Assembly: GCA_949358305.1 (NCBI GenBank)
Contig: OX442320.1
Coordinates: 6,154,259-6,218,258 of the forward strand
Direction of reading: 5' to 3'
DNA from: Strigamia acuminata
Taxonomy: Eukaryota; Arthropoda; Chilopoda; Geophilomorpha; Linotaeniidae
DNA: 64,000 nt
A program made the position numbers and the translations under genes. Within the stretch, counting starts at the first letter, position 1. Each line of letters begins with the position of its first letter. Shown piece by piece: positions 3,654 through 20,126 of this stretch. The notes beneath the pieces are model-generated. The model was not told the DNA's origin. It saw nothing but the letters and a program-made list of their open reading frames with translations, and made no database searches.

Positions 3654-6089
3654 ATGGTTTCACGAATCATTCGGCCTCAATCGTTGGTGGGAGCAACTGG
3701 AAATGTATTCCGTCAATTTTCAACAAGCCATAAGGTAATAACGCGAGTGCAATTTCGTCTTTAAGCACTCCCTGTTTGACCTTGGCAAAATAAGCCTATT
3801 TCGATGACCCCCATCAATTGATAACGGTTAAATCCAGCCTGATTACTTCGATTAGATTAAAAAAAATAAAAAAAAAAACTCTAATTTAAATTTTTTAATT
3901 TAAACTTTATAAATTTTTAACTTATTAAATTTTTTTTCCCAGAACAATACCAAAGTGGCCGTTATGGGAGCTGCGGGAGGAATCGGCCAGCCTCTGTCCC
4001 TCCTGCTGAAAACCTCACCTCTTATTAAGGAATTATCCCTATACGACATTGTCCACACTCTGGGAGTCGCCGCCGACTTAAGTCACATAGAAACAGCGTG
4101 CAAAGTCAAAGGGTTCGTCGGTCCCGACCAGTTAAAAGTAGGTGACAAATTTTTCTCAAATTTTGACAAATTTTTCTCAAATTTTGACAAATTTTTCTCA
4201 AATTTTGACAAATTTTTCTCAAATTTTGACAAATTTTTCTCAAATTTTGACAAATTTTTCTCAAATTTTGACAAATTTTTCTCAAATTTTGACAAATTTT
4301 TCTCAAATTTTGACAAATTTTTCTCAAATTTTGACAAATTTTTCTCAAATTTTGACAAATTTTTCTCAAATTTTGACAAATTTTTCTCAAATTTTGACAA
4401 ATTTTTCTCAAATTTTGACAAATTTTTCTCAAATTTTGACAAATTTTTCTCAAATTTTGACAAATTTTTCTCAAATTTTGACAAATTTTTCTCAAATTTT
4501 GACAAATTTTTCTCAAATTTTGACAAATTTTTCTCAAATTTTGACAAATTTTGACAAATTTTTCTCAAATTTAGACAAATTTTTCCCAAATTTGACAAAT
4601 TTTGACAAATACGAAATCTATGGTAATTTGTGCTAAAAATTGTTTTTTTAAGGATTCGTTAAGGGGCTGCCACGTCGTGGTTATACCGGCCGGAGTGCCC
4701 CGCAAGCCGGGAATGACCAGACAAGATTTATTCAACACCAACGCGACGATTGTGAGAGATTTGGTCGAGGCGTGCGCGCAAGTTTGTCCGAAAGCGATGC
4801 TCTGCATCATCTCGAATCCAGTGAGCGAAGGAAAAATTAAATTTTCAGGTTTATTGAAGCGTTGTTGTGTGAATTTAGGTGAATTCGACAGTCCCGATCG
4901 CGGCGGAAGTCTGTAAAAAGGGGAATTGTTTCGATCCGAAACGATTGTTTGGCGTGAGCACTTTGGATGTGGTGCGAGCCAACACTTTTATCGCCGAGCT
5001 CAAGGTTGAGAGGGAGCGATTTGATTGGTATTTGGATCGGTGATAGCGAGTTTGTTTGTTGATTTAGGGTTTGGATCCGACTCAAGTGAATATACCCGTG
5101 ATCGGAGGGCATTCGGGGGTGACTATCATCCCGTTGACGTCTCAGTGCACACCGGCTGTTAATTTTCCTGAGGATCAGCTGAAGACGCTGACAGTGCGGA
5201 TACAAGAAGCGGGAACTGAAGTGGTCAAAGCGAAGGCTGGATCTGTAGGATTTTGGTTGATTAAAATTGAGAAATTATTGAAAGTTTATTTTTTTTTGTC
5301 GTTTAAGGGCTCGGCGACGTTGTCGATGGCGTTTGCTGGAGCTAGATTTACTATTTCGGTGTGGTTTTATTGATTTAGTGTTTTTTTTTTTTTTTTTTAA
5401 ATTAAATTTATTGTTTTGTTTTAGTTGGTGAAAGCAATCGCTGGTCAGGAGGGAGTGATCGAGTGTGCGTATGTTAAGTCTGACGTGACCGAAGCGACGT
5501 ATTTTGCAAATCCGATTCTTTTAGGCGTAAGTTTTGATTTTTTTTATGTTTTGCGAATTTTTTAAAATGTTTTGAGGATGTTTTTGATATTTTGTGATTT
5601 TTTTTGATGTTTTTGAGGATTTTTTTGATGTTTTTGAGGATTTTTTTGAAGTTTTTGAGGATTTTTTTGATGTTTTTGAGGATTTTTTTGAAGTTTTTGA
5701 GGATTTTTTTGATGTTTTTGAGGATTTTTTAGATGATTTTTAGATTTTTTTGATGTTTTTGAGGATTTTTTAGATGATTTTCAGATTTTTTTGATGTTTT
5801 TGAGGATTTTTTAGAGGATTTTTAGATTTTTTTGATGTTTTTGAGGATTTTTTTGTTGAATTTTCAGATTTTTTTGATGTTTTTTCAGATTTTTTTGATG
5901 TTTTTCCGAAGCTTTTTTTGTGTTTGCTGATTTTTATCATGTTTTGTGTTTAATTTGCAGAGAAATGGCCTTGAAAAGAACTTGGGTATTGGAAAATTAT
6001 CTCCATTTGAGACTGAGCTGCTTAAGAAAGCTCTTCCTGAATTGAAAGAGAACATTAAAGCTGGTGAAGCCTTTATGGGAAAGAAGTAA
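3654..6089 (+). CDS. MDH2: Mitochondrial malate dehydrogenase
   Basis: Eight exons: 3654-3734, 3943-4137, 4653-4820, 4879-5004, 5068-5244, 5308-5358, 5425-5526, 5961-6089; exactly 342 aa. It oxidises malate to oxaloacetate with NAD+ in the matrix (TCA cycle, malate-aspartate shuttle). The N-terminus [21 protein letters not shown] is a basic presequence. The nucleotide-binding loop is [10 protein letters not shown], the substrate-binding segment [16 protein letters not shown] carries the arginines, the sequence [13 protein letters not shown] includes the catalytic Asp-Arg region and VIGGHSG carries the proton-accepting His. The C-terminus ends [13 protein letters not shown]. Length and motifs match the animal mitochondrial enzyme. 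Two introns are expanded by tandem repeats (4138-4652 and 5527-5960). Confidence 0.97.
4141..4612. repeat. 21-bp minisatellite in MDH2 intron 2
   Basis: About 19 near-perfect copies of a 21-bp unit (GACAAATTTTTCTCAAATTTT), decaying at the 3' end. Because 21 is a multiple of three and the unit lacks stops in several frames, the array reads open in at least two plus and two minus frames, as a heptad-periodic peptide. It lies between a clean GTAGGT donor and a TTTAAG acceptor, so it is intronic in MDH2. Confidence 0.95.
5565..5935. repeat. T-rich tandem repeat in MDH2 last intron
   Basis: Interleaved units close to TTTTTTGATGTTTTTGAGGA, with AAGTTTTTGAGGA and AGATGATTTTTAGA variants, fill the 434-bp intron before the last coding exon. 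Confidence 0.85.
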
Positions 6090-8791: not shown

Positions 8792-9166
8792 ATGACCGAT
8801 TTTGACCATCAAAGAGGCGAGCGAAGCGTTTTAAGCCACCTTTGTTTCGTTATCTTGGAAGCTTTAGGTGTAAGTGAATATTTCAATTGGGAAACTGCTG
8901 ACGGAACCGATGAATTCCATTTAAAAATCTTGCAAACATTGCTCATAGTATTGTGTTTTAACATTTGTTTCGCCTGCATCGCGTGGAAAGTGTACGGACC
9001 GAGAATAATAGATCGATTTATGAAACCAAGTAATTATTTTTTATAAAAAAAAAAAAAAAGAAATTAAATTTTATTTTAAATTTCAGTGCCAAGTACTCTT
9101 CTTGAAGACCTCAAACAAGGCGTCAAGGAATTAAAACTACCCCAGGAGCATTCACCCCGAATTTAA
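8792..9166 (+). CDS. Small single-pass membrane protein, unknown family
   Basis: Two exons, 8792-9029 and 9087-9166, about 105 aa. A hydrophobic helix (LQTLLIVLCFNICFACIAW, about residues 52-70) is preceded by a soluble N-terminal half and followed by KVYGPRIIDRFMKP and a short polar tail ending EHSPRI. The splice site splits the codon of the second Met (A|TG). I do not recognise the family. The cysteines inside the helix and the short charged tail suggest a small organelle or ER membrane protein. The next gene, UBXN6, begins only 25 bp after its stop codon, so the two may overlap in their transcribed regions. Confidence 0.7.
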
Positions 9167-9191
9167 AGTCGAAAAAGCGAAATCCGACGCC

Positions 9192-12100
9192 ATGGCTGCA
9201 ATTAGAAACTTTTTTGAGAAGCGCAAATTGCAGGCAAAATTCAAACTCGCGGGACAAGGTCAGAAACTCGGCCAGACGTCCGAAAGTTCGGGTCACTCAC
9301 GCACTCCAGCGCGTCAACACCATTCCGGAAGCGCCAAACCTCCCAAAATGACGGATGAAGCGAAACGAGCGGGCGCCGCTGCGTTGGCCCGCTTTGACCA
9401 TCACCAACAGAGTGTCCCGAGCATGGCCAGCAGGTCGCAGAATGTGATTAGAGCCGAGGCGATGAAGGAATTAGCTCTGGAAAAATCCGAAGTTGTCGCT
9501 AAACCGAGCACAACTAAAGAGGTCTTAATTTAATTGATGTTTTTGAAGTTTTTTTGGATTTTTTTAGAATTTTTTTTGGATTTTTTAGAATTTTTTAGAA
9601 TTTTTTAGAATTTTTTTGAATTATTTTGAATTTTTTTGAATTTTTTTGAATTATTTTGAATTTTTTTGAATTATTTTGAATTATTTTGAATTTTTTTGAA
9701 TTTTTTTGAATTATTTTGAATTTTTTTGAATTTTTTTGAATTATTTTGAATTATTTTGAATTATTTTGAATTATTTTGAATTATTTTGAATTATTTTGAA
9801 TTATTTTGAATTATTTTGAATTATTTTGAATTTTTTTGAATTATTTTGAATTTTTTTGAATTTTTTTGAATTATTTTGAATTTTTTTGAATTATTTTGAA
9901 TTTTTTTGAATTATTTTGAATTTTTTTGAATTATTTTGAATTATTTGCAGAGCAAACAAGACAGCGCTCCCGTGTTGGCCGTGAATGGAGTTTATTTCAA
10001 GTGCCCTCTCGCGACGTCGGAGGTTTTACCGAAAGCAGAAATGCACGAACGAATTCGAAGTTTTTTATTGGAGCAGTTAAGCGACGAAACGGAAGTTACG
10101 TCGTGTTACATGATTCACACGTTAAATAAGCGAGATAAAGTAAAGATTTGGATTTTGGATGATTTTTCTGGTTTTTTTAATGGTTTTGTTTAATTTTTTG
10201 GGCGGTTTTAGGTCGAAGTGTGTGTTAAAACACTCGCAAAGTACTTGGAAAATATTCTGGAGTTTCCAGACGAGGAGAAATATCAAAAAATTCGGATTAA
10301 TAATCGTGTTTTCCAAGAGAAAGTGGCGAGTCTTTCGGGCGTCAAAGAGTTTTTGTTGGCTTCTGGGTTCGAATCGAAGCAAATATCGCCGAGTGAGGAC
10401 TCGCCGCCAGAGGATTATTACGTTTTCAACGCAACGAAACTGAACGATGCTCGTCGTTTGTTGAATATGCTGTTGGAGACGGAACCGATTCTTCCAGAAC
10501 TCGACCGCGACGTTAAAGTTTTCGCACCGACGGAAAGCAGTTTAAGTAATATATCGCTCTCGTCTGATTTTTATAATATCACGGCGGATGATGTCAAGAA
10601 CGAACAAAAAACGAAGTGAGTTTAGCATTTTTTTTTAAATTTCTTTCAAAATGATTACAGAAATCGGTGGAAATAGCCTCGGCCTTATTTTAATTATTTT
10701 ATTTTGTAACAGGTCCGAAGATGTCGAAAGAAATTTAATGCTGCGTACGAAAGCGATGCGCGAAAGGGACGAAGTCCGCGAATTAAGACGTTACAAATAC
10801 ACGTTAATACGAATACGTTTTCCAGATGGAGTCATTTTACAAGTATGTTTGCATTTTTTACGTTTTATTTATTTATTTTGATTTATTTTGATTTATCTTG
10901 ATTTATTTTGATTTATTTTGAATTATTTTGAATTATTTTGATTTATTTTGATTTATTTTGATTTATTTTGATGTATTTTGATTTATTTTGATTTATTTTG
11001 ATTTATTTTGATGAATTTTGATTTATTTTCATTTATTTTGATGTATTTTGATGTATTTTGATGTATTTTGAGGTATTTTGATTTATTTTGATTTATTTTG
11101 ATTTCGTTTGATTTATTTTGATTTCTTTTGATTTATTATGGTTTATTTTCATTTATTATGGTTTATTTTGATTTCTTTTGATTTCTTTTGATTTATTATG
11201 GTTTATTTTCATTTATTATGGTTTATTTTGATTTATTTTGATGTATTTTGATTTGTTTTGATTTCTTTTGATTTATTTTGATTTCGTTTTGATTTCTTTT
11301 GATTTATTATGGTTTATTTTCATTTATTATGGTTTATTTTCATTTATTATGGTTTATTTTGATTTATTTTGATGTATTTTGATTTGTTTTGATTTATGTT
11401 GATGTATTTTGATGTATTTTGATGTATTTTGATTTCTTTTGATTTATTTTGATTTCGTTTTGATTTCTTTTGATTTATTATGGTTTATTTTCATTTATTA
11501 TGGTTTATTTTGATTTACAGTGTAAGCTGTGTAGTCTGGACACCTCCCGACCGGACAAGCTCTGTGGTCCGGACAGGTTTTGAGGTCCTAAATTGGTCCC
11601 GCCTATACCCAGCCATGCTAAATTCCCTTTTCCCATCTGGACAGCCCCTTAGTCCGGACAACTTTCTGGGTCCCGTCCTATGTCCGGGCTACACAGCCTA
11701 CACTGTATTTTGATTTATTTTGATTTATTTTGATTTAGTTTGATTTATTTTGATTTATTTTGATTTATTTTGATTTATTTTGATTTATTTTGATTTATTT
11801 TGATTTATTTTGATTTATTTTGATTTATTTTGATTTATTTTGATTTATTTTGATTTATTTTGATTTATTTTGATTTATTTTGATTTATTTTGATTTATTT
11901 TGTATTTGAAGGGAACTTTTTCCGTCCACGAAAAACTGGATGCTGTGCAGAACTTTGTTCTCTCGAGTTTAGTCAACGATTGGCAACCGTTTAATTTGAC
12001 GACGTCGACCGGTCAGAAGTTAACCGAGTCTGAGAAAAGCCTGTTGGAATTGCATTTAGTTCCTGCGGTTATCATTCATTTCGCGTGGGATCCCGAGATC

Positions 12101-12199
12101 GCCATTGAGTTGCTGCGCGAAACCGGCGTGGAGTCCAACACGTATTTAAACGAGGATATGCTGTTGTTGCTGGAAGAATTGAAAGTAACGTCTAATTAA
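9192..12199 (+). CDS. UBXN6: UBX domain-containing protein 6 (p97/VCP cofactor)
   Basis: Five exons: 9192-9521, 9951-10139, 10212-10615, 10713-10842, 11912-12199; exactly 446 aa. The start MAAIRNFFEKRKLQAKFK matches the conserved N-terminal VIM-like region of UBXN6. Around residues 175-260 a PUB domain is visible (VKTLAKYLENILEFPDEEKY, KIRINNRVFQEKVASLSGVK, FLLASGF). The C-terminal UBX domain starts at RYKYTLIRIRFPDGVILQGT, continues with DWQPFNLTTSTGQKL and ends in a short leucine-rich tail. UBXN6 bridges p97/VCP to endolysosomal and ERAD substrates. Introns 1 and 4 are expanded by 10-bp-type repeats, and intron 4 carries a MITE. Confidence 0.93.
9530..9945. repeat. 10-bp tandem repeat in UBXN6 intron 1
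   Basis: Roughly 40 copies alternating between TTTTTTTGAA and TTATTTTGAA fill almost the whole intron up to the TTTGCAG acceptor. Confidence 0.92.
10860..11900. repeat. TGATTTATTT tandem repeat in UBXN6 intron 4, interrupted by a MITE
   Basis: A 10-bp unit TGATTTATTT and variants (GTATTTTGAT, TCTTTTGATT, ATTATGGTTT) run for about 1 kb. The left part is diverged, while the right part (11706-11900) is almost perfect. The array is split by a 188-bp non-repetitive insertion at 11518-11705. Confidence 0.93.
11518..11705. mobile_element. 188-bp TA-flanked MITE, Tc1/mariner-like
   Basis: The segment begins CAGTGTAAGCTGTGTAG and ends CTACACAGCCTACACTG; these are inverted repeats of 17 bp with one mismatch. 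It is flanked by TA on both sides (11516-11517, 11706-11707), the target duplication expected of Tc1/mariner elements, whose ends often begin CAGT. Inside are further CCGGAC/GTCCGG palindromes. No protein is encoded. It inserted into a pre-existing TGATTTATTT array, so the empty site can be inferred exactly. Confidence 0.85.
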
Positions 12200-12617
12200 G
12201 TGGTTGTTGTTTTTTTTTTTAAATTCCTTATGGTGGACGTTATAAATCGTAATTTTTATTTATTTGAGAGTTGCACAAACAATTAGGTTAATCGGATACA
12301 AATAACTGAAAGAAAAAGGATATTTCTGTGTGTAATTTTCGTTACGGGAGGTGAAAATAATTAAAAATTAAAAATAATTATCAATTTTTATTTATTTTAT
12401 TTTTTTGTGACGCTGGAATGGGTGTGCCATCTACAATGCGTAAAAACGAAATTTGAGATTACTACTTTGGTTTCAGCGGGGATTTGCTGTATTAGCTTAT
12501 TTCATATTTGCATCCAGGAAGTTCGTTTAATTTTCGGATTTCCCGTTCCTAAAGATAGCAAAAATACAGCGCAAATTGTTTACTCTTCCACCTTTGAAGC
12601 ACGATGATAACTTCGTT
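12200..12617 (+). promoter_or_regulatory. Upstream region of Death-PGRP copy A; start of the tandem duplication
   Basis: From about 12222 (AAATTCCTTATGGTGGACG) this sequence is nearly identical to the region from about 14768. A kappa-B-like element GGGGATTTGC sits near 12478-12487, one base from consensus GGGRNNYYCC; copy B has a perfect match at the corresponding place. A second GGATTTCCC lies near 12536. No coding exon is evident before the ATG at 12618. Confidence 0.45.
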
Positions 12618-14130
12618 ATGGCTGCTGAAACATTGCAAGAAAAAAACAAGGCAAATGACTTTCGTCTTGAACTTGCAATTGCCTTCCGACCGGTACCTTT
12701 GACGGCCCTAACTGACGAAATGAAATCGATTTTGTCCGAAGCTCTTAACAAACCAACCGTTACACATTCCTCTAAGAAATTTATACGGTAATCAAAATAA
12801 GTGCATATTTGTCTTGAATTAAGGTGATTTTTCTTGAATTTAGTGATTTTTCTTAAATTAACGAGTTTTTCCTTGAATTAACTAGGTTTTTTCTTAAAAT
12901 TAACGAGTTTTTCTTTGAATTAACTAGGTTTTTTCTTGAGTTCACGTGTTTTTTTCTTGAGTTCACGTGTTTTTTCTTGAATTAACGTGTTTTTTCTTGA
13001 ATTAACGTGTTTTTTCTTGAATTAACGTGTTTTTTCTTGAATTAACGTGTTTTTTCTTGAATTAACGTGTTTTTTCTTGAATTAACGTGTTTTTTCTTGA
13101 ATTAACGTGATTTTTCTTTATTTTTGACAGGAATTTCAGAGGTTTGGCGGAACTGATTGGTTTCCAAAATTCAGAGATCAAAACTGCATCCGATTGTGAA
13201 GATCCAACCGGTTATTTACTGACACAATGGGATGGGCAAAATGAAAGTTCAATCGGACGGCTCCTGGAACACCTGAATCGAATGGAACGATATGATGTCG
13301 AAGAAGATCTACGACCCCTTCTTACTGGTAATAAAAAATATGAAAAACCCCTTTAAATTCAAACCCAAAACTCCTAAACTTTGCAGAAAACAGCTCTATT
13401 CGATTCTTGCCGTACATATCAACTCTGGAAACCGAAAGCGACGAAACTTTGGAAGCCAGAAACCGCGCACGAAGCTTCGGTTTAAATTACGTAACCCGAG
13501 CCGAATGGGGCGCCTACTGTTCCCGCCTAAAAACACCACTGGCGGTGAGTCCCGTCAAGGTAGTCTTCATCCATCACACCGTGTGGTACGACTCGGATAC
13601 CATCCACGGCATCCAAATATTGCAATCGCGCAAAATGATCCATTACGGTAAGAAAATCAAGTTAAATCGACATTGATCAATTTTATTTTCATTGTTTTTG
13701 TTTATTTTTCAGGACATAACGACGTGCCGTACAGCTTTTTCGTATCCAAAGATGCGCGCGTGTTCGAAGGACGTGGTTGGGATTTCAGTGGTTCGCACAC
13801 TAAACAATACAACTACGTGTCGCTCAGTTTCGCATTGTACGGGAATTACGAGGAACACGAAACTACCGAGGAGATGATCGATGCCGTCCGAACTTTAATT
13901 GACTACGGTGTTTCAATCGTAATTACGTGGTATTTTACGTGTAATTAGTGATTATTTAGATGTATTTTTGTTTTCTTCAGGGCAAGATCGATCCTAACTA
14001 CGGCGTGTATTGCCACAGCGATGCGTCGGAGACTTTGAGCCCAGGCAAATTCGCGGCGGAAGCCGTTTCTAAGTTTCCTAAGTTTCACGCTCTGGGGGAT
14101 CTGCCGGCAAGTGAAGCTTTATTGCCCTAA
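12618..14130 (+). CDS. Death domain-PGRP fusion protein, copy A (putative cytosolic peptidoglycan sensor-adaptor)
   Basis: Five exons: 12618-12787, 13131-13327, 13387-13647, 13713-13918, 13981-14130; exactly 327 aa. Residues about 28-122 form a Death domain most like MyD88: VPLTALTDEMKSILSEALN, then NFRGLAELIGF, DPTGYLLTQW and SSIGRLLEHLNRMERYDVEEDL. After a short linker (ENSSIRFLPYISTLETESDE) comes a PGRP/amidase-2-type domain from about residue 160: TRAEWGAYCSRLKTPL, VVFIHHTVW, GIQILQSRKMIHYG, VPYSFFVSKDARVFEGRGW, YNYVSLSFALYGNY, VYCHSDASETLSPGKF. The N-terminus MAAETLQEKNKANDFRLE is not a signal peptide. The usual Cys pair after HHT is absent, and the zinc-ligand Cys of amidases is Ser (LSPG), so it should bind rather than cut peptidoglycan. 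No TIR or kinase domain follows. The start ATG is conserved in copy B. Confidence 0.9.
12800..13115. repeat. 20-bp tandem repeat in intron 1 of Death-PGRP copy A
   Basis: About 14 copies of TTTTTTCTTGAATTAACGTG and variants. The equivalent intron in copy B (15362-15515) has only about 7 copies, so the array has changed length since the gene duplication. Confidence 0.92.
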
Positions 14131-14770
14131 ATGTTGTTGGTTTCGTAATATCGGGCCTTTTGGGCCGAATGTTAGCGTCAGTTTAGGGTGTTCTTGTAGC
14201 AACACGTCCAATGTGTCGTGCAACTCCGGCGACAAAATTAGGGACTGGATAAACGGAGAGAAACTTTGATCAAATAACAAGTTGAAGATATATTTTTTTT
14301 TTCTTTTACATTACAATCCAATAATTTCAATTGCGTGACTTGATTTTGCGTGAGTGCTTCCAGTATTGACTTTAATCCTTCGGTTCCCAGCGGATTTTTA
14401 CCGATCTGGAATAGAAATTCGTCAGAAATTTGTGGGAAAACAATTTTGGTATAATTTTACTTTCCCGGCCACCTCACAGATCATCTCCAAAAGTTGGATT
14501 CAGGGGTAGTCAAGGGTGGGGAATCGAATGGCGTTGACGGTTTTGGGGGCAAACGAAAACGGAAGCGGAAATCAGGATCACAGTGTCATCACAGTGTCAT
14601 TGAGTTGATTATCTAAAAAAAAATTAAACTAAATTAATCAAGTTTAAATTTATGTATTTTAAACCTCACTTGATAAAATGAGTGTTTGCAGCCATTGATT
14701 TTCGGCTAAACCTTGTGCACGGCATTTCCTAAACAATTATGGGATAAATTCTAAGAAAGTATACGTTAAA
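14119..14770 (-). pseudogene. Broken duplicate of the 3' end of the LRR gene
   Basis: On the minus strand, 14119-14244 and 14310-14405 match the last two exons of the LRR gene at 16526-18044. Then 14598-14625 and 14668-14770 match scraps of two more upstream exons, one with an internal deletion in the GLIIAQGL region, while about 400 bp in between are missing or replaced by unrelated sequence (about 14465-14590). There is no promoter, 5' half or continuous frame. The simplest reading is that one segmental duplication copied the Death-PGRP gene together with the tail of its convergent neighbour, and this tail then decayed. Confidence 0.85.
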
Positions 14771-15174
14771 TTCCTTGTGGTGGACGTTATAAATCGTAAT
14801 TTTCATTTATTTGAGAGTTGCACAAACAATTAGGTTAATCGGATACAAATAACTGAAAGAAAAAGGATATTTCTGTGTGTAATTTTCGTTACGAGAGGTG
14901 AAAATAATTAAAAATTAAAAATAATTATCAATTTTTATTTATTTTATTTTTTTGTGATGCTTGAATGGGTGTGCCATCTACGATGCGTATAAACAAAATT
15001 TGAAAACGTATTAATTAATTAATTTATCAGCGGGGATTTCCTGTATTAGCTCATCTCATATTTACATCCAGGAAGTCCGTTTAATTTTCGGATTTCCCCT
15101 TCGTAAAGATATAGTAGAAAATACAGCGCAAATGTTAACGATTCGACCTTTGAAGCACGTGTGATAACTTCGTT
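14771..15174 (+). promoter_or_regulatory. Upstream region of Death-PGRP copy B with perfect kappa-B consensus
   Basis: This is the duplicate of 12222-12617. At about 15032-15041 it reads GGGGATTTCC, a perfect GGGRNNYYCC NF-kappa-B/Rel consensus roughly 135 bp before the ATG at 15175. Copy A has one mismatch at this position. No coding exon is seen. Confidence 0.45.
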
Positions 15175-16537
15175 ATGGCTGTTGAAACATTGCAAGAAAA
15201 AAGCAAGGCAAATGATTATCGTCTTAATCTTGCATTTGCCTTCCAACCGGTACCTTTGACGGCCCTAACTGACGAAATGAAATCGATTTTGTCCGAAGCT
15301 CTTAACAAACCAACCGTTACACATTCCTCTAAGAAATTTATACGGTAATCAAAATAAGTGCATATTTGTCTTGAATTAAGGTGATTTTTCTTGAATTTAG
15401 TGATTTTTCTTAAATTAACGAGTTTTTCTTTGAATTAACGTGTTTTTCCTTGAATTAACGTGTTTTTTCTTGAGTTCGCGTGTTTTTTCCTTGAATTAAC
15501 TTGCTTTTTCTTTATTTTTGACAGGAATTTCAAAGGTTTGGCGGAACTGATTGGTTTCCAAAATTCAGAGATCAAAACTGCATCGGAGTATGAAGATCCA
15601 ACCGGTTATTTACTGACACAATGGGCAAAACAGAATGAAAGTTCAATCGGACGGCTCCTGGAACACCTGGACCGAATGGAACGATATGACGTCGAAGAAG
15701 ATCTACGACCCCTTCTTACTGGTAATAAAAAATATAAAAAAAAAAAACCTTTCAAATTCAAACCAAAAACTCCAAAACTTTGCAGAAAACAGCTCGATTC
15801 GATTCTTGCCGTACATATCAACTCTGGAAACCGAAAGCGACGAAACTTTGGAAGCCAGAAACCGCGCACGAAGCTTCGGTTTAAATTACGTAACCCGAGC
15901 CGAATGGGGCGCCTACTGTTCCCGCCTAAAAACACCACTGGCGGTGAGTCCCGTCAAGGTAGTCTTCATCCATCACACCGTGTGGTATGACTCGGATCCC
16001 ATCCACGGCATCCAAATATTGCAATCGCGCAAAATGATCCACTACGGTAAGAAAATTAAGTTAAATCGACATTGATCAATTTTATTTTCATTGTTTTTGT
16101 TTATTTGTCAGGACATAACGACGTGCCGTACAGCTTTTTCGTATCCAAAGATGCGCGCGTGTTCGAAGGACGTGGTTGGGATTCCAGCGGCTCGCACACG
16201 CTTCGATACAACTACGTGTCGCTCAGTTTCGCATTGTTCGGTAATTACGAGGAACACGAAACCACCGAGGAGATGATCGAGGCTGTGCGAACTTTAATCG
16301 ACTACGGTGTTTCAATCGTAATTACGTGATATTTTACGTGTAATTTACTAATTAGTGATTATTTAGATGGATTTTTGTTTTCTTCAGGGCAAGATCGATG
16401 CTAACTACGGCGTGTATTGCCACAGCGATGCGTCGGAGACCGCGAGCCCCGGCAAATTCGCGGTGGAAGCCGTTTCTAAGTTTCCTAAGTTCCACGCTCT
16501 GGGGGATCTGCCGGCAAGTGAAGCTTTATTGCCCTAA
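15175..16537 (+). CDS. Death domain-PGRP fusion protein, copy B
   Basis: Five exons with identical phases and lengths to copy A: 15175-15344, 15525-15721, 15786-16046, 16112-16317, 16388-16537; 327 aa. The Death domain (NFKGLAELIGF, DPTGYLLTQW, RMERYDVEEDLRPLL) and PGRP domain (RAEWGAYC, FIHHTVWYDSDPIHG, FEGRGWDSSGSHTLRYNYV, YCHSDASETASPGKF) are both intact. Differences from copy A cluster in the first 28 residues, in two Death-domain patches (EYEDPT for DCEDPT, WAKQ for WDGQ) and in the loop after RGW, where the PGRP ligand groove lies. The zinc-ligand Cys is again replaced (ASPG) and there is no signal peptide. The last 12 bp overlap the 3' coding end of the convergent LRR gene. Confidence 0.9.
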
Positions 16538-18044
16538 ATGGTGTTGGTTTCGTAAAATCGGGCCTTTTGGGCCGAATGTTAGCGTCAGTTTCGGGTGTTC
16601 TTGTAGCAACACGTCCAATGTGTCGTGCAACTCCGGCGACAAAATTAGGGACTGGAAAAACGGAAAGAAACTTTGATCAAATAACAAGTTGGAGATATAT
16701 ATTTTTTTTCTTTTACATTACAATCCAATAATTTCAGTTGCGTGACTTGATTTTGCGTGAGTGCTTCCAGTATTAATTTTAATCCTTCGGTTCCCAGCGG
16801 ATTTTTACCGATCTGGAATAGAAATTCGTTAGAAATTTGTAGGAAAAACATTATTTTATAAACTCACTTTGAAAATACTTAATTGTGTGTTTTGACTTAA
16901 TCCGAGAGCTAGAGGTTTGGCAGCTTTGTTTGGAATTCTGTTACTCCTATTAAAACAATGTTTTATTCACGTGGATTAATATCTGTGGTGAAAAATTACG
17001 TTATGTCGAGGTATTGGAGCGTGCAGTTGACGGCCAAAGCTTCTCCCAACGCTTTGCCGCTCTCGATGGCTAATCCGTTGTGAGCCAAGTGTAATCGCGT
17101 CAGAGTTTTGTTCGTTTGCAGCGACGTTAATAAGCGGTCGGCGCCTCTTCCGCGGACGCAATTCCAAGCCAAATTGAGTTCCGTCAACGACGAGTTGTTT
17201 TTTAATCCGATTCCGAACGCAATTGCAGATTTCGTACCCAAATAATTATCTTCTACGTCGAGATATTGCAGCGTCGTGTGTTTTTGTAGCGCTTTTCCTA
17301 TAGCGGTACCCACAGTATCATCGAGTTGGTTATCTATAAAATATTAAATTAAATTAATCAAGTTTAAAATTATGTATTTTAAACCTCACTCGATAAAATG
17401 AGTGTTTGCAGCCATTGATTTTCGGCTAAACCTTGCGCTATAATCAATCCGCCGCTTTTTCCTAACCAATTATGGGATAAATTCTAAGAAAGTATACGTT
17501 AAAACTTAGAAAATATCGTTTAAAATGTTGATTTACCAAATAAGTGATGCATTTATTGGAGGAAACTAGACTTTGAAGACAATTTGCGCCTTCTGGACCT
17601 ATGAAATTTCCTCCCAAGTCGATCGACCGAAATCGCTGACTTCCCTGCAAATTTAATAAAATTTATTAAATTTAATGGAATACGGGACTTTTTAACTAAC
17701 ATTAATGGCCTTTAATAGCGCTTCGATGCCTGTTTTGCCTAATCCACGTTGGTGGAGACACAGGGTTCTGAATTGAAAGCAGTTTAAAGCTCTGGATGCG
17801 GGAACAGTTTGCAGTTGTTCGCACGCTTTTAAGTAAGCGGTGCGCAAAGCTACAACTTCCGCTTCTACCGGTCCTTTTTTAAACAGATTTTGTGGTAATA
17901 ACTTCAATGCTATTTATTTTAACACGTTTTACTTAACAAGTGCGCATTCGGATCGACTTTTTCAGCACCCAAATCGTTAAATTCCTCCTCGGTTAACGCA
18001 AAATCCAATAAAAATTTGTTGGATTGCACATCTCCATCCGCCAT
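16526..18044 (-). CDS. Leucine-rich repeat protein (RNase-inhibitor-type LRR, LRRC74-like)
   Basis: Eight exons (minus): 17933-18044, 17701-17909, 17537-17644, 17390-17483, 17000-17333, 16868-16946, 16717-16812, 16526-16651; exactly 385 aa. The N-terminus MADGDVQSNKFLLDFALTEE is acidic. The body is a run of about 28-residue LRRs of the ribonuclease-inhibitor class (SIDLGGNFIGPEGANCLQSL, NLSHNWLGKSGGLIIAQGL, YLDVEDNYLGTKSAIAFGIG, ELNLAWNCVRGRGADRLL, YLDITSNRIPNKAAKPLALG). The C-terminus GPKGPILRNQHHLGQ leaves the repeat. The order and tail resemble LRRC74A/B proteins, whose function is poorly known. Its 3' end is convergent with, and overlaps, Death-PGRP copy B. Confidence 0.88.
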
Positions 18045-18210
18045 CTTGTTTACACCCGTTGCTAGGCAAACGAATCAATAATTCAGCTTTTTCTTTTCAA
18101 GTGTTTTATCAAATTAATTTTGTACATAGATATAACTACACATTTTCTTTCCACAAATTTTGAAATAATAAAATAGAAAAAAAAACGAGTTAAATGAACC
18201 GTGCGAACAA

Positions 18211-20126
18211 TTATTTCTGTTGCGCTTTAGTCTGTTCGTCTTGTTTCTTCGCCTCCATTTTCGCTCTCTTCTTGGCCCCCATCATCAGACTCTCTCGTTC
18301 TTGCGGCGACATGTTGGGGAGAATTTTAGTCACAACTCCCGTTCCCACAGTCGTGGACCCCGAGCGCAGAGTGAACCTCTGTCCTTGTTCCATAAACATG
18401 GTTTTGATGAGTTTCAGCATAAATCTACGAACAAAACAAACGTTTAAAACCGATTCATCGTCGCCAAATCGACGCAAAACGCACTTGGAATCCTCGCCGG
18501 GCATCACCATGTCTTTATCAACGATCAAAACCGACGCACTCACGTCCCACGTCTTCGAGAACATCATGAGCGCGTGGTTAGTGGTAAAAGGCTTCCCATT
18601 CCCTCCTTCGTCTTTGGTTAAAACGTAAACCTGAACCTCCACCTGATCGTGCGCATCGATCGAACCGGGCTTGCACACGGCCATTCCTCTTCGCAGTTCA
18701 TCTCTCTTGATGCCCCGAATTAAAGCCCCCATTTGGTCGCCCGCTTGGCCTTCTTCGAGGGTCTTGTGGAACATTTCGATGCCTGAAAAACGCAATTATC
18801 TCCGATTAACGTCCGAAAAATCACGAGTTTTTGGTTGAATTCTTTACCGGTGATGGTGCTTTTTAGTTTTTTACTGTATCCGATTAATTCGCATTCCATT
18901 CCTTTCTTAATGACGCCTCTGTCCAGCCTTCCCGTCACCACAGTGCCTCGACCGGGGATCGAATAGACGCTGTCGATGGGCAGTAAATAAGGTTTGTCCA
19001 ATGCTCGCACTGGATCCGGGATGTAGGAGTCGACGGCTTCCATTAGTTTCATGATGGAATCGCGACCGATTTCCGGGTTTTTGCCCTGTTTGTTTGCAAA
19101 GAATGTTTGTTTATTTGTGGAAATGTGTGATTTTGGTTTGAAATTTTACTTCTAGGGCACACAGAGCCGATCCGGACACAAAAGGTATTTTGTCACCTTC
19201 CATTCCCATCGAATTCATCAACTCCCGCAGCTCTATTTCGGCCAGTTCCACCATTTCCTGGTCCGCGGCGTCCACTTTGTTGATGTAGACCACTATGTTG
19301 CTGATTCCGATCTGGAATTGAAATTATTTCACCCAATTTCCGATTAGTTTTCGAGCGGATTCTACTTGTTTGGCTAGAATTAAATGCTCCCTCGTTTGCG
19401 GCATTGTGCCGTCAGTCGCCGCCACCACCAAGATGGCGCCGTCCATTTGCGTCGTGCCCGTAATCATGTTCTGAAATATAAATAAATAAATAAATTTCAT
19501 TGATTTAATTTGATCGGAATACTTTGATGTAATCGGCGTGTCCCGGGCAATCGGTGTGTCCGTAATGGCGTTTATCGGTCGCATATTCAACGTGGGCTAT
19601 GTTAATGGTAATTCCCCGTTTCTTTTCTTCGGGTGCATTGTCAATATCCTCGTACTTTTTCTCCAAAGCCAACTTCTTTTCGGCTAACACTGTATTGAGA
19701 AAAACGGAAAATTAATTAATTAATTTTGTATTTATTTGTTGCGAATGCCTTTCGTGATGGCCGCGGTGAGAGTTGTTTTCCCGTGGTCGACGTGCCCGAT
19801 GGTTCCGACGTTACAATGAGGTTTTTCTCTCGAAAACACTTTTTTTCCACCCGGGGGTGTCGGAGGTGTAGCCAAGCATCGCAAAGATGTGGAAAATAAA
19901 CGACAGAACGTCAACTGATGAAATAAAAACGAAATAATTAAGAAAACACAAGAAAAAACATCAAAATATCGATTTTTTAAATACTTTTCGCAGCGCATCT
20001 TCGTTGTTCAATGCAACCAATGATTTTTTCAGACCTAAAAAAAAGTAATTTTTTTAAAATACATTTAAATATTTCACTAATTTAATCCGCATTACCGATT
20101 CTACTAACGAGTCTGAAGATCATCAT
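18211..20126 (-). CDS. TUFM: Mitochondrial elongation factor Tu
   Basis: Nine exons (minus): 20096-20126, 19985-20034, 19749-19914, 19523-19689, 19366-19470, 19150-19311, 18848-19085, 18485-18782, 18211-18424; exactly 476 aa. It delivers aminoacyl-tRNA to the mitochondrial ribosome. A presequence of about 45 residues is followed by G1 GHVDHGKT, the RGITIN switch, G3 DCPGH, G4 NKVD and G5 SGSAL, then domains 2 and 3 ending [15 protein letters not shown]. About 32 extra residues ([20 protein letters not shown] and beyond) form a basic C-terminal extension. The first GTPase-domain intron (19690-19748) appears to be GC-AG. The last intron (18425-18484) is 60 bp, in frame and stop-free, so retention would add 20 residues. 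The ATG lies 183 bp from that of carboxypeptidase D, in opposite orientation. Confidence 0.95.

Follow-up and report, generated by a model that had tools for sequence, protein, structure and literature searches.

Two tandem genes, named A and B here, are located in a 64,000-nucleotide stretch of DNA of the centipede Strigamia acuminata (contig OX442320.1; the whole stretch is called “the window” in the following). Together with a second pair of genes in the same genome, C and D, they are predicted with near certainty to join an N-terminal Death domain of the MyD88 type to a peptidoglycan recognition protein (PGRP) domain. PGRPs normally occupy one end of the Toll pathway and MyD88 the other, and a gene family welding both into one protein would suggest that the intermediate Toll steps can be bypassed. 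Gene A occupies positions 12618-14130 and gene B positions 15175-16537, both on the plus strand and with five exons and 327 residues each. The exons and the duplication unit around gene A are listed here with the evidence used for each.

12618-12787, plus strand: gene A exon 1, N-terminus and Death helix 1 (PLTALTDEMKSILSEALN block); open reading frame, upstream in-frame stop, GT donor in phase 2, helix 1 by alignment with MyD88
13131-13327, plus strand: gene A exon 2, Death helices 2-6; Pfam Death, MyD88 match of the B counterpart in the PDB, AlphaFold2 (AF2) model of the B exon
13387-13647, plus strand: gene A exon 3, linker and start of the PGRP domain (FIHHT); Amidase_2, preceding 59-bp intron in phase 1
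13713-13918, plus strand: gene A exon 4, PGRP core (PYSFFV...GRGW); Pfam, PDB alignment
13981-14130, plus strand: gene A exon 5, PGRP C-terminus (YCHSDASETLSPG) and stop; Pfam, PDB alignment
15175-15344, plus strand: gene B exon 1, N-terminus and Death helix 1; open reading frame, splice model
15525-15721, plus strand: gene B exon 2, Death helices 2-6; Pfam, PDB match to MyD88, AF2
15786-16046, plus strand: gene B exon 3, linker and start of the PGRP domain; Pfam, PDB match
16112-16317, plus strand: gene B exon 4, PGRP core; Pfam, PDB match
16388-16537, plus strand: gene B exon 5, PGRP C-terminus and stop; Pfam, PDB match
12204-14440, no strand: tandem duplication unit 1 within the compared range; its partner is 14765-16845

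The introns of A and B, as given by predicted splicing, all possess GT-AG borders and are in phases 2, 1, 1, and 0, and the start methionine is in both genes the first one in frame downstream of an in-frame stop. Pfam placed a Death domain at residues 57-118 and an Amidase_2 domain at residues 177-301 of both proteins. The Death match was above the cut-off of 22.6 bits in all four genes (A, 33.0; B, 34.6; C, 25.8; D, 27.0 bits), and the Amidase_2 match exceeded its cut-off of 26 bits in three of them (A, 55.6; B, 52.8; D, 45.6 bits). The initial annotation of this DNA had claimed two intact 327-residue genes running in frame from Death into PGRP, which these five-exon models with both Pfam domains above cut-off bear out; the Death motif blocks it quoted, among them FRGLAELIGF and DPTGYLLTQW, and the 13327/13387 exon junction are present in the sequence. 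The first methionine of exons 3 to 5 is situated within the PGRP domain in A and B (residue 206) and in C (residue 157), so that the PGRP half of these three proteins could hardly be made alone; gene D has a methionine at residue 128, just before the PGRP domain.

Comparison of the two duplication units found 370 of 399 aligned bases alike in the 5' flank, 296 of 308 in the 3' flank, and 90-97% in the compared introns. Intron 1 consists mostly of a tandem repeat with a 20-base unit, present in 15.4 copies in A (12808-13118) and in 7.4 copies in B (15364-15512). The coding sequences are separated by 26 nonsynonymous and 21 synonymous changes, and the ratio of nonsynonymous to synonymous rates (dN/dS) of the whole protein was 0.35 (p = 5e-4, one-sided Fisher test). 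It was 0.23 for the PGRP part (p = 3e-4), and the 32-residue linker contains a single synonymous change. The A/B protein as a whole is under purifying selection.

The genome searched comprises 237,517,015 bases in 157 contigs, and S. acuminata is the one centipede covered. A search of this genome with gene B yielded 29 matches, including a Death-PGRP-Death-PGRP run on contig C4. Read exon by exon, this run represents two genes, C with 313 and D with 308 residues, each with five exons, GT-AG introns in phases 2, 1, 1, and 0, and the plan found in A and B, which is therefore common to all four genes. When aligned, C and D share the same residue in 132 of 321 columns, and synonymous change between the two genes has reached saturation (dS about 2.2; dN/dS 0.22). 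The contig with the window (C9, 12.25 Mb) fits chromosome 7 of the published assembly, C4 fits chromosome 3, and C3, which is discussed below, fits chromosome 2 (PMC10556566). No Death domain was found next to other PGRP genes when six stretches with such genes (L046 and L055-L059) were searched with the Death profile.

Three of these stretches, L055-L057 (C6:3319000-3348700), form a cluster of stand-alone PGRP genes, with no Death domain found in that stretch. Another one, L059 (C12:5372000-5380500), harbors on its reverse strand at 4032-4827 a broken copy of gene D with 92% identity, which spans the first base of exon 3 and intron 3, reaches into exon 4, and is joined to another segment of C4 (94%; L044 9533-9901). 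This copy was considered as a processed copy that might demonstrate splicing, and it proves nothing in this respect because intron 3 is retained. Directly upstream of it is an 85-bp repeat with at least 39 further matches, several of which are paired in inverted orientation at a distance of about 0.8-0.9 kb (1.4-2.3 kb for some), resembling the end of a DNA transposon.

Which Death domain was used in the fusions can be read from a profile of all four, which matched human MyD88 in the PDB over its full length with an E value of 1.4e-12, followed by p75NTR (2.6e-4), IRAK3 (0.14), and RIPK1 (0.51). The Death domain of gene B matches MyD88 in the PDB as well. The AF2 model of exon 2 of gene B, based on five rows, contains five helices with a mean predicted local distance difference test score (pLDDT) of 77.6 and a predicted template modeling score (pTM) of 0.54; helix 1, encoded by exon 1, is outside this model. 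In addition to the Death sequence, the fusions resemble MyD88 in an N-terminal P(L/I)xAL block and in the positions and phases of two introns, but they carry the PGRP domain in place of the intermediate and TIR domains; no TIR domain was among the Pfam matches of A to D at E values up to 1. Six residues of human MyD88 were compared; A and B retain E52, L93, R98, and D100 and have an arginine in place of K95. E52del and L93P of MyD88 have been found in patients, and L93P has been suggested to block the interaction with IRAK4 (PMC13424689).

The MyD88 of S. acuminata itself is encoded on contig C3. Its TIR part matched MyD88 (4.6e-24) and TLR2 (3.3e-9) in the PDB, with 14.8 bits for the first TIR exon alone, which is under the Pfam cut-off of 21.3. 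Its Death part matched MyD88 (2.8e-8), and the repeat proteins ranked higher in that search had no individually passing stretch. When the own genome was searched with this Death part, only MyD88 itself and A to D were obtained (seven matches at E values up to 1). Intron 1 of this MyD88 gene is in phase 2 and cuts before helix 2, and intron 2 is in phase 1 and follows the Death domain. Introns 1 and 2 of the fusions match these in place and phase, intron 2 exactly in C and D and one codon off in A and B. Among the 10 Pfam Death matches of the genome, those of MyD88, A, and B start at profile position 15-16, where the exon starts, and the others start at position 31 (D), 2-5 (L001-L004), 13 (L007), and 32 (C4:1985607). 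The last of these was read as a UNC5-like gene with a Death domain split elsewhere. A Death domain split as in MyD88 is not general to the Death domains of this genome. The MyD88-like Death domain of the initial annotation is upheld by the PDB profile, the own-genome search, and the two shared introns, and the Death exons of A to D very probably derive from MyD88. The agreement of intron positions and phases with the own MyD88 points to a likely origin of the fusion by shuffling of MyD88 exons 1 and 2 onto a PGRP gene.

This may have happened more than once, A/B and C/D having been fused independently from MyD88 and different PGRPs. The Death domain of C is equally near to MyD88 (34 of 95 positions) and to A (32 of 95), and in a tree of the PGRP core (19 rows, two of them PDB chains) the four fusions formed one group in only 22% of 200 bootstrap trees. 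The tree is weak, however, and a single origin is still compatible with it, and the five-exon plan and the junction phase are common to all four genes, which makes two separate fusions rather unlikely. Far less probable is the explanation that A and B represent wrongly joined adjacent genes, pseudogenes, or an assembly artefact: one splice plan occurs in four copies at two places, the intron at the Death/PGRP junction is short (59 bp in A, 64 bp in B, 130 bp in C, and 98 bp in D), A and B are under purifying selection, and the sequence comes from a HiFi assembly with a quality value (QV) of 59.6 (PMC10556566).

The nearest solved structures to the PGRP domain of A were, in this order, PGRP-LF, PGRP-LCx, PGRP3 (4z8i), and PGRP-LE, and those to the domain of B were PGRP3, PGRP-LE, PGRP-LF, and PGRP-LCx. 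Catalytic PGRPs use His, His, and Cys as zinc ligands (PMC8347126). The zinc Cys is gone in all four fusions, being Ser in A and B, Gly in C, and Glu in D; A and B retain both His residues and the Tyr. A non-enzymatic protein is suggested because this Cys is missing and not because of the structure ranking, since PGRP3 does carry the Cys. Neither cysteine of the pair that follows the HHT motif is present in A, B, or D, and a single one remains in C. Five stand-alone PGRP exons were found by profile, four of which possess the pair, the remaining one being the broken copy of D; further stand-alone exons were found by a pattern requiring the pair and are not counted here. Hydropathy over 19 residues peaked at 0.95 (A and B), 1.32 (C), and 1.21 (D), and no signal peptide or membrane segment was apparent in any of the four by simple measures of this type, no dedicated predictor having been run. 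The four proteins thus fit cytosolic, non-catalytic PGRPs, given the lack of an apparent signal peptide or membrane segment, the loss of the zinc Cys, and, in three of four, the absence of the Cys pair. Introns 3 and 4 of the fusions have candidate counterparts in stand-alone PGRP genes, a phase-1 acceptor at 13 of 13 core exons and a phase-0 donor at 12 of 13, although such candidates also arise by chance. These 13 core exons are from L046 and L055-L059, with partial matches left out (e.g., L056 5401-5655, L057 8483-8749, and the pieces in L059). The diverged pair C/D, the intron match with MyD88, and the loss of the zinc Cys are new beyond the initial annotation.

Several known systems share parts of this architecture. 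NOD1 and NOD2 are receptors composed of a CARD, a NACHT ATPase, and peptidoglycan-sensing leucine-rich repeats (LRR). They resemble the fusions in combining a cell-wall sensor and a death-fold signaling domain in one cytosolic protein, but their sensor domain is unrelated, the signaling domain is a CARD instead of a Death domain, and a NACHT ATPase is present. PGRP-LF is the top PDB match for the PGRP domain of A and is not known to have a Death domain. PGRP-LE and PGRP-LC, the IMD receptors of Drosophila, resemble the fusions as PGRPs without the zinc Cys, and PGRP-LE is in addition intracellular and also lacks the Cys pair in the aligned stretch. Their link to IMD is reported to proceed via a RHIM motif (PMC4833078), not a Death domain, and they differ from A and B in an Arg discussed below. 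For Strigamia maritima of the same genus, 20 PGRPs, 27 Toll-like receptors (TLRs), and one MyD88 were reported by Palmer and Jiggins 2015 (PMC4833078). Many PGRPs of chelicerates and of this centipede are without a signal peptide, as the fusions appear to be. According to that paper, many intracellular PGRPs of chelicerates and myriapods lack RHIM and are predicted to be catalytic, and its relevant passages mention no Death domain on a PGRP (PMC4833078).

No description of a PGRP with a Death domain was found in the portions of the open-licence literature on PGRPs and myriapod immunity that were searched, which agrees with the initial annotation, where no described PGRP with a MyD88-type Death domain was known. 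Protein searches of other species with B, with D, and with the alignment of the four Death domains gave no Death-PGRP protein, in a collection that is perhaps poor in animals and uninformative on other centipedes; the search with B gave one PGRP-only protein (P0001, 265 aa).

From this architecture, a function can tentatively be proposed, with a probability that falls somewhat short of even: the fusions would be cytosolic PGRP-Death proteins that are clustered by ligand and feed the MyD88-Pelle/IRAK assembly, with a Toll-type NF-kB output. The protein would reside in the cytosol, where its PGRP domain may bind a piece of bacterial cell wall or some other ligand entering this compartment. Clustering driven by the ligand would increase the local concentration of Death domains, and the clustered domains could join or seed a MyD88-Pelle/IRAK Death-domain assembly without Spatzle, Toll, and the TIR step, leading to the Toll-type NF-kB output. 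The initial annotation had placed the sensor directly on the Death-domain platform; of this reading, the architecture and the MyD88 type of the Death domain stand, and binding of peptidoglycan, clustering, and recruitment of Pelle/Tube stay conjectural.

A number of observations weigh against such a function. On the signaling side, the intermediate domain of MyD88 is missing in the fusions, and MyD88 filaments have been reported to require at least the Death domain (DD) plus the intermediate domain (ID) (PMC13424689). Y58 of human MyD88 is Asn in A and B, as it is in the own MyD88 of the centipede, and in S. maritima one Pelle was reported and no Tube was found (PMC4833078). For the Death part of A/B alone, dN/dS was 0.41 and not significant (p = 0.085), so that purifying selection on this domain cannot be proven from the A/B pair, and the first 24 residues gave 1.86 on eight changes. 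On the sensor side, gene C reaches only 18.1 bits for Amidase_2, under the Pfam cut-off, and C and D are also without the first zinc His. The residue of A and B aligned to an Arg of PGRP-LE and PGRP-LCx is Tyr; this Arg, taken as Arg254 from our own count along the PGRP-LE chain, has been reported to be responsible for recognition of diaminopimelic acid (DAP)-peptidoglycan in PGRP-LE (PMC8347126). PGRP-LF is likewise without Arg at that place.

Some of these features are those expected of a negative regulator or decoy, the Death domain of which would enter MyD88/Pelle assemblies without being able to relay the signal, since both the intermediate and the TIR domain are missing, and would cap or titrate Toll signaling, perhaps tuned by peptidoglycan. 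A short splice form of MyD88 is an inhibitor. An inhibitor is a serious rival because the intermediate domain is missing, in line with the reported minimum for filaments, because Tyr replaces the Arg linked to DAP as putative ligand contact, and because the PGRP domain decays in C; moreover, the PGRP domain of A is nearest to PGRP-LF, an inhibitor of an NF-kB pathway by the title of PMC5279808. A PGRP part under purifying selection (0.23) would be superfluous in a plain decoy, however, and four of the six compared MyD88 residues are kept in A and B; this explanation is judged unlikely, though by no means negligible. The fusions may instead feed another Death-domain pathway, such as the IMD/FADD-type NF-kB branch or cell death, and not the MyD88-Pelle branch, and L001 was indeed read as a FADD-like gene. 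FADD was not among the 14 PDB matches of the four-Death-domain profile at E values up to 1, and RIPK1 reached only 0.51, but Pelle, Tube, and IRAK4 were equally unlisted, and this search tells the derivation of a Death domain and not its binding partner; such a pathway is considered improbable.

If the fusions do feed the MyD88-Pelle/IRAK assembly, they might represent a NOD-like shortcut of centipedes, a peptidoglycan receptor of the cytosol acting as its own MyD88 and seeding a Myddosome-type complex independently of Spatzle, Toll, and TIR, with the two diverged pairs possibly using different ligands; this extension is more speculative than the proposed function itself. The fusion would be a candidate cytosolic bacterial sensor for centipedes and provides an easy way to test if clustering of a MyD88 Death domain suffices for signaling in arthropods.

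In the surroundings of A and B (9135-12199 and 16976-20007 of the window), the neighbors look like ordinary genes. The upstream neighbor matched a PUB domain (83.7 bits) and weakly a UBX domain (20.3 bits; cut-off, 21), and downstream, on the minus strand, there are an LRR gene and exons of elongation factor Tu. With respect to the Toll pathway in this species, 59 TIR_2 and 55 TIR matches were obtained in the genome, counted at the exon level in overlapping sets and not as genes, many of them in clusters with long open frames on C4, C1, and C9. This looks like a very large Toll repertoire compared to the 27 TLRs reported for S. maritima. At positions 11000-11907 of the window, a 10-base unit (GATTTATTTT type) is repeated in two arrays with 51.6 and 20.1 copies, which are separated by a different block of about 190 bases.

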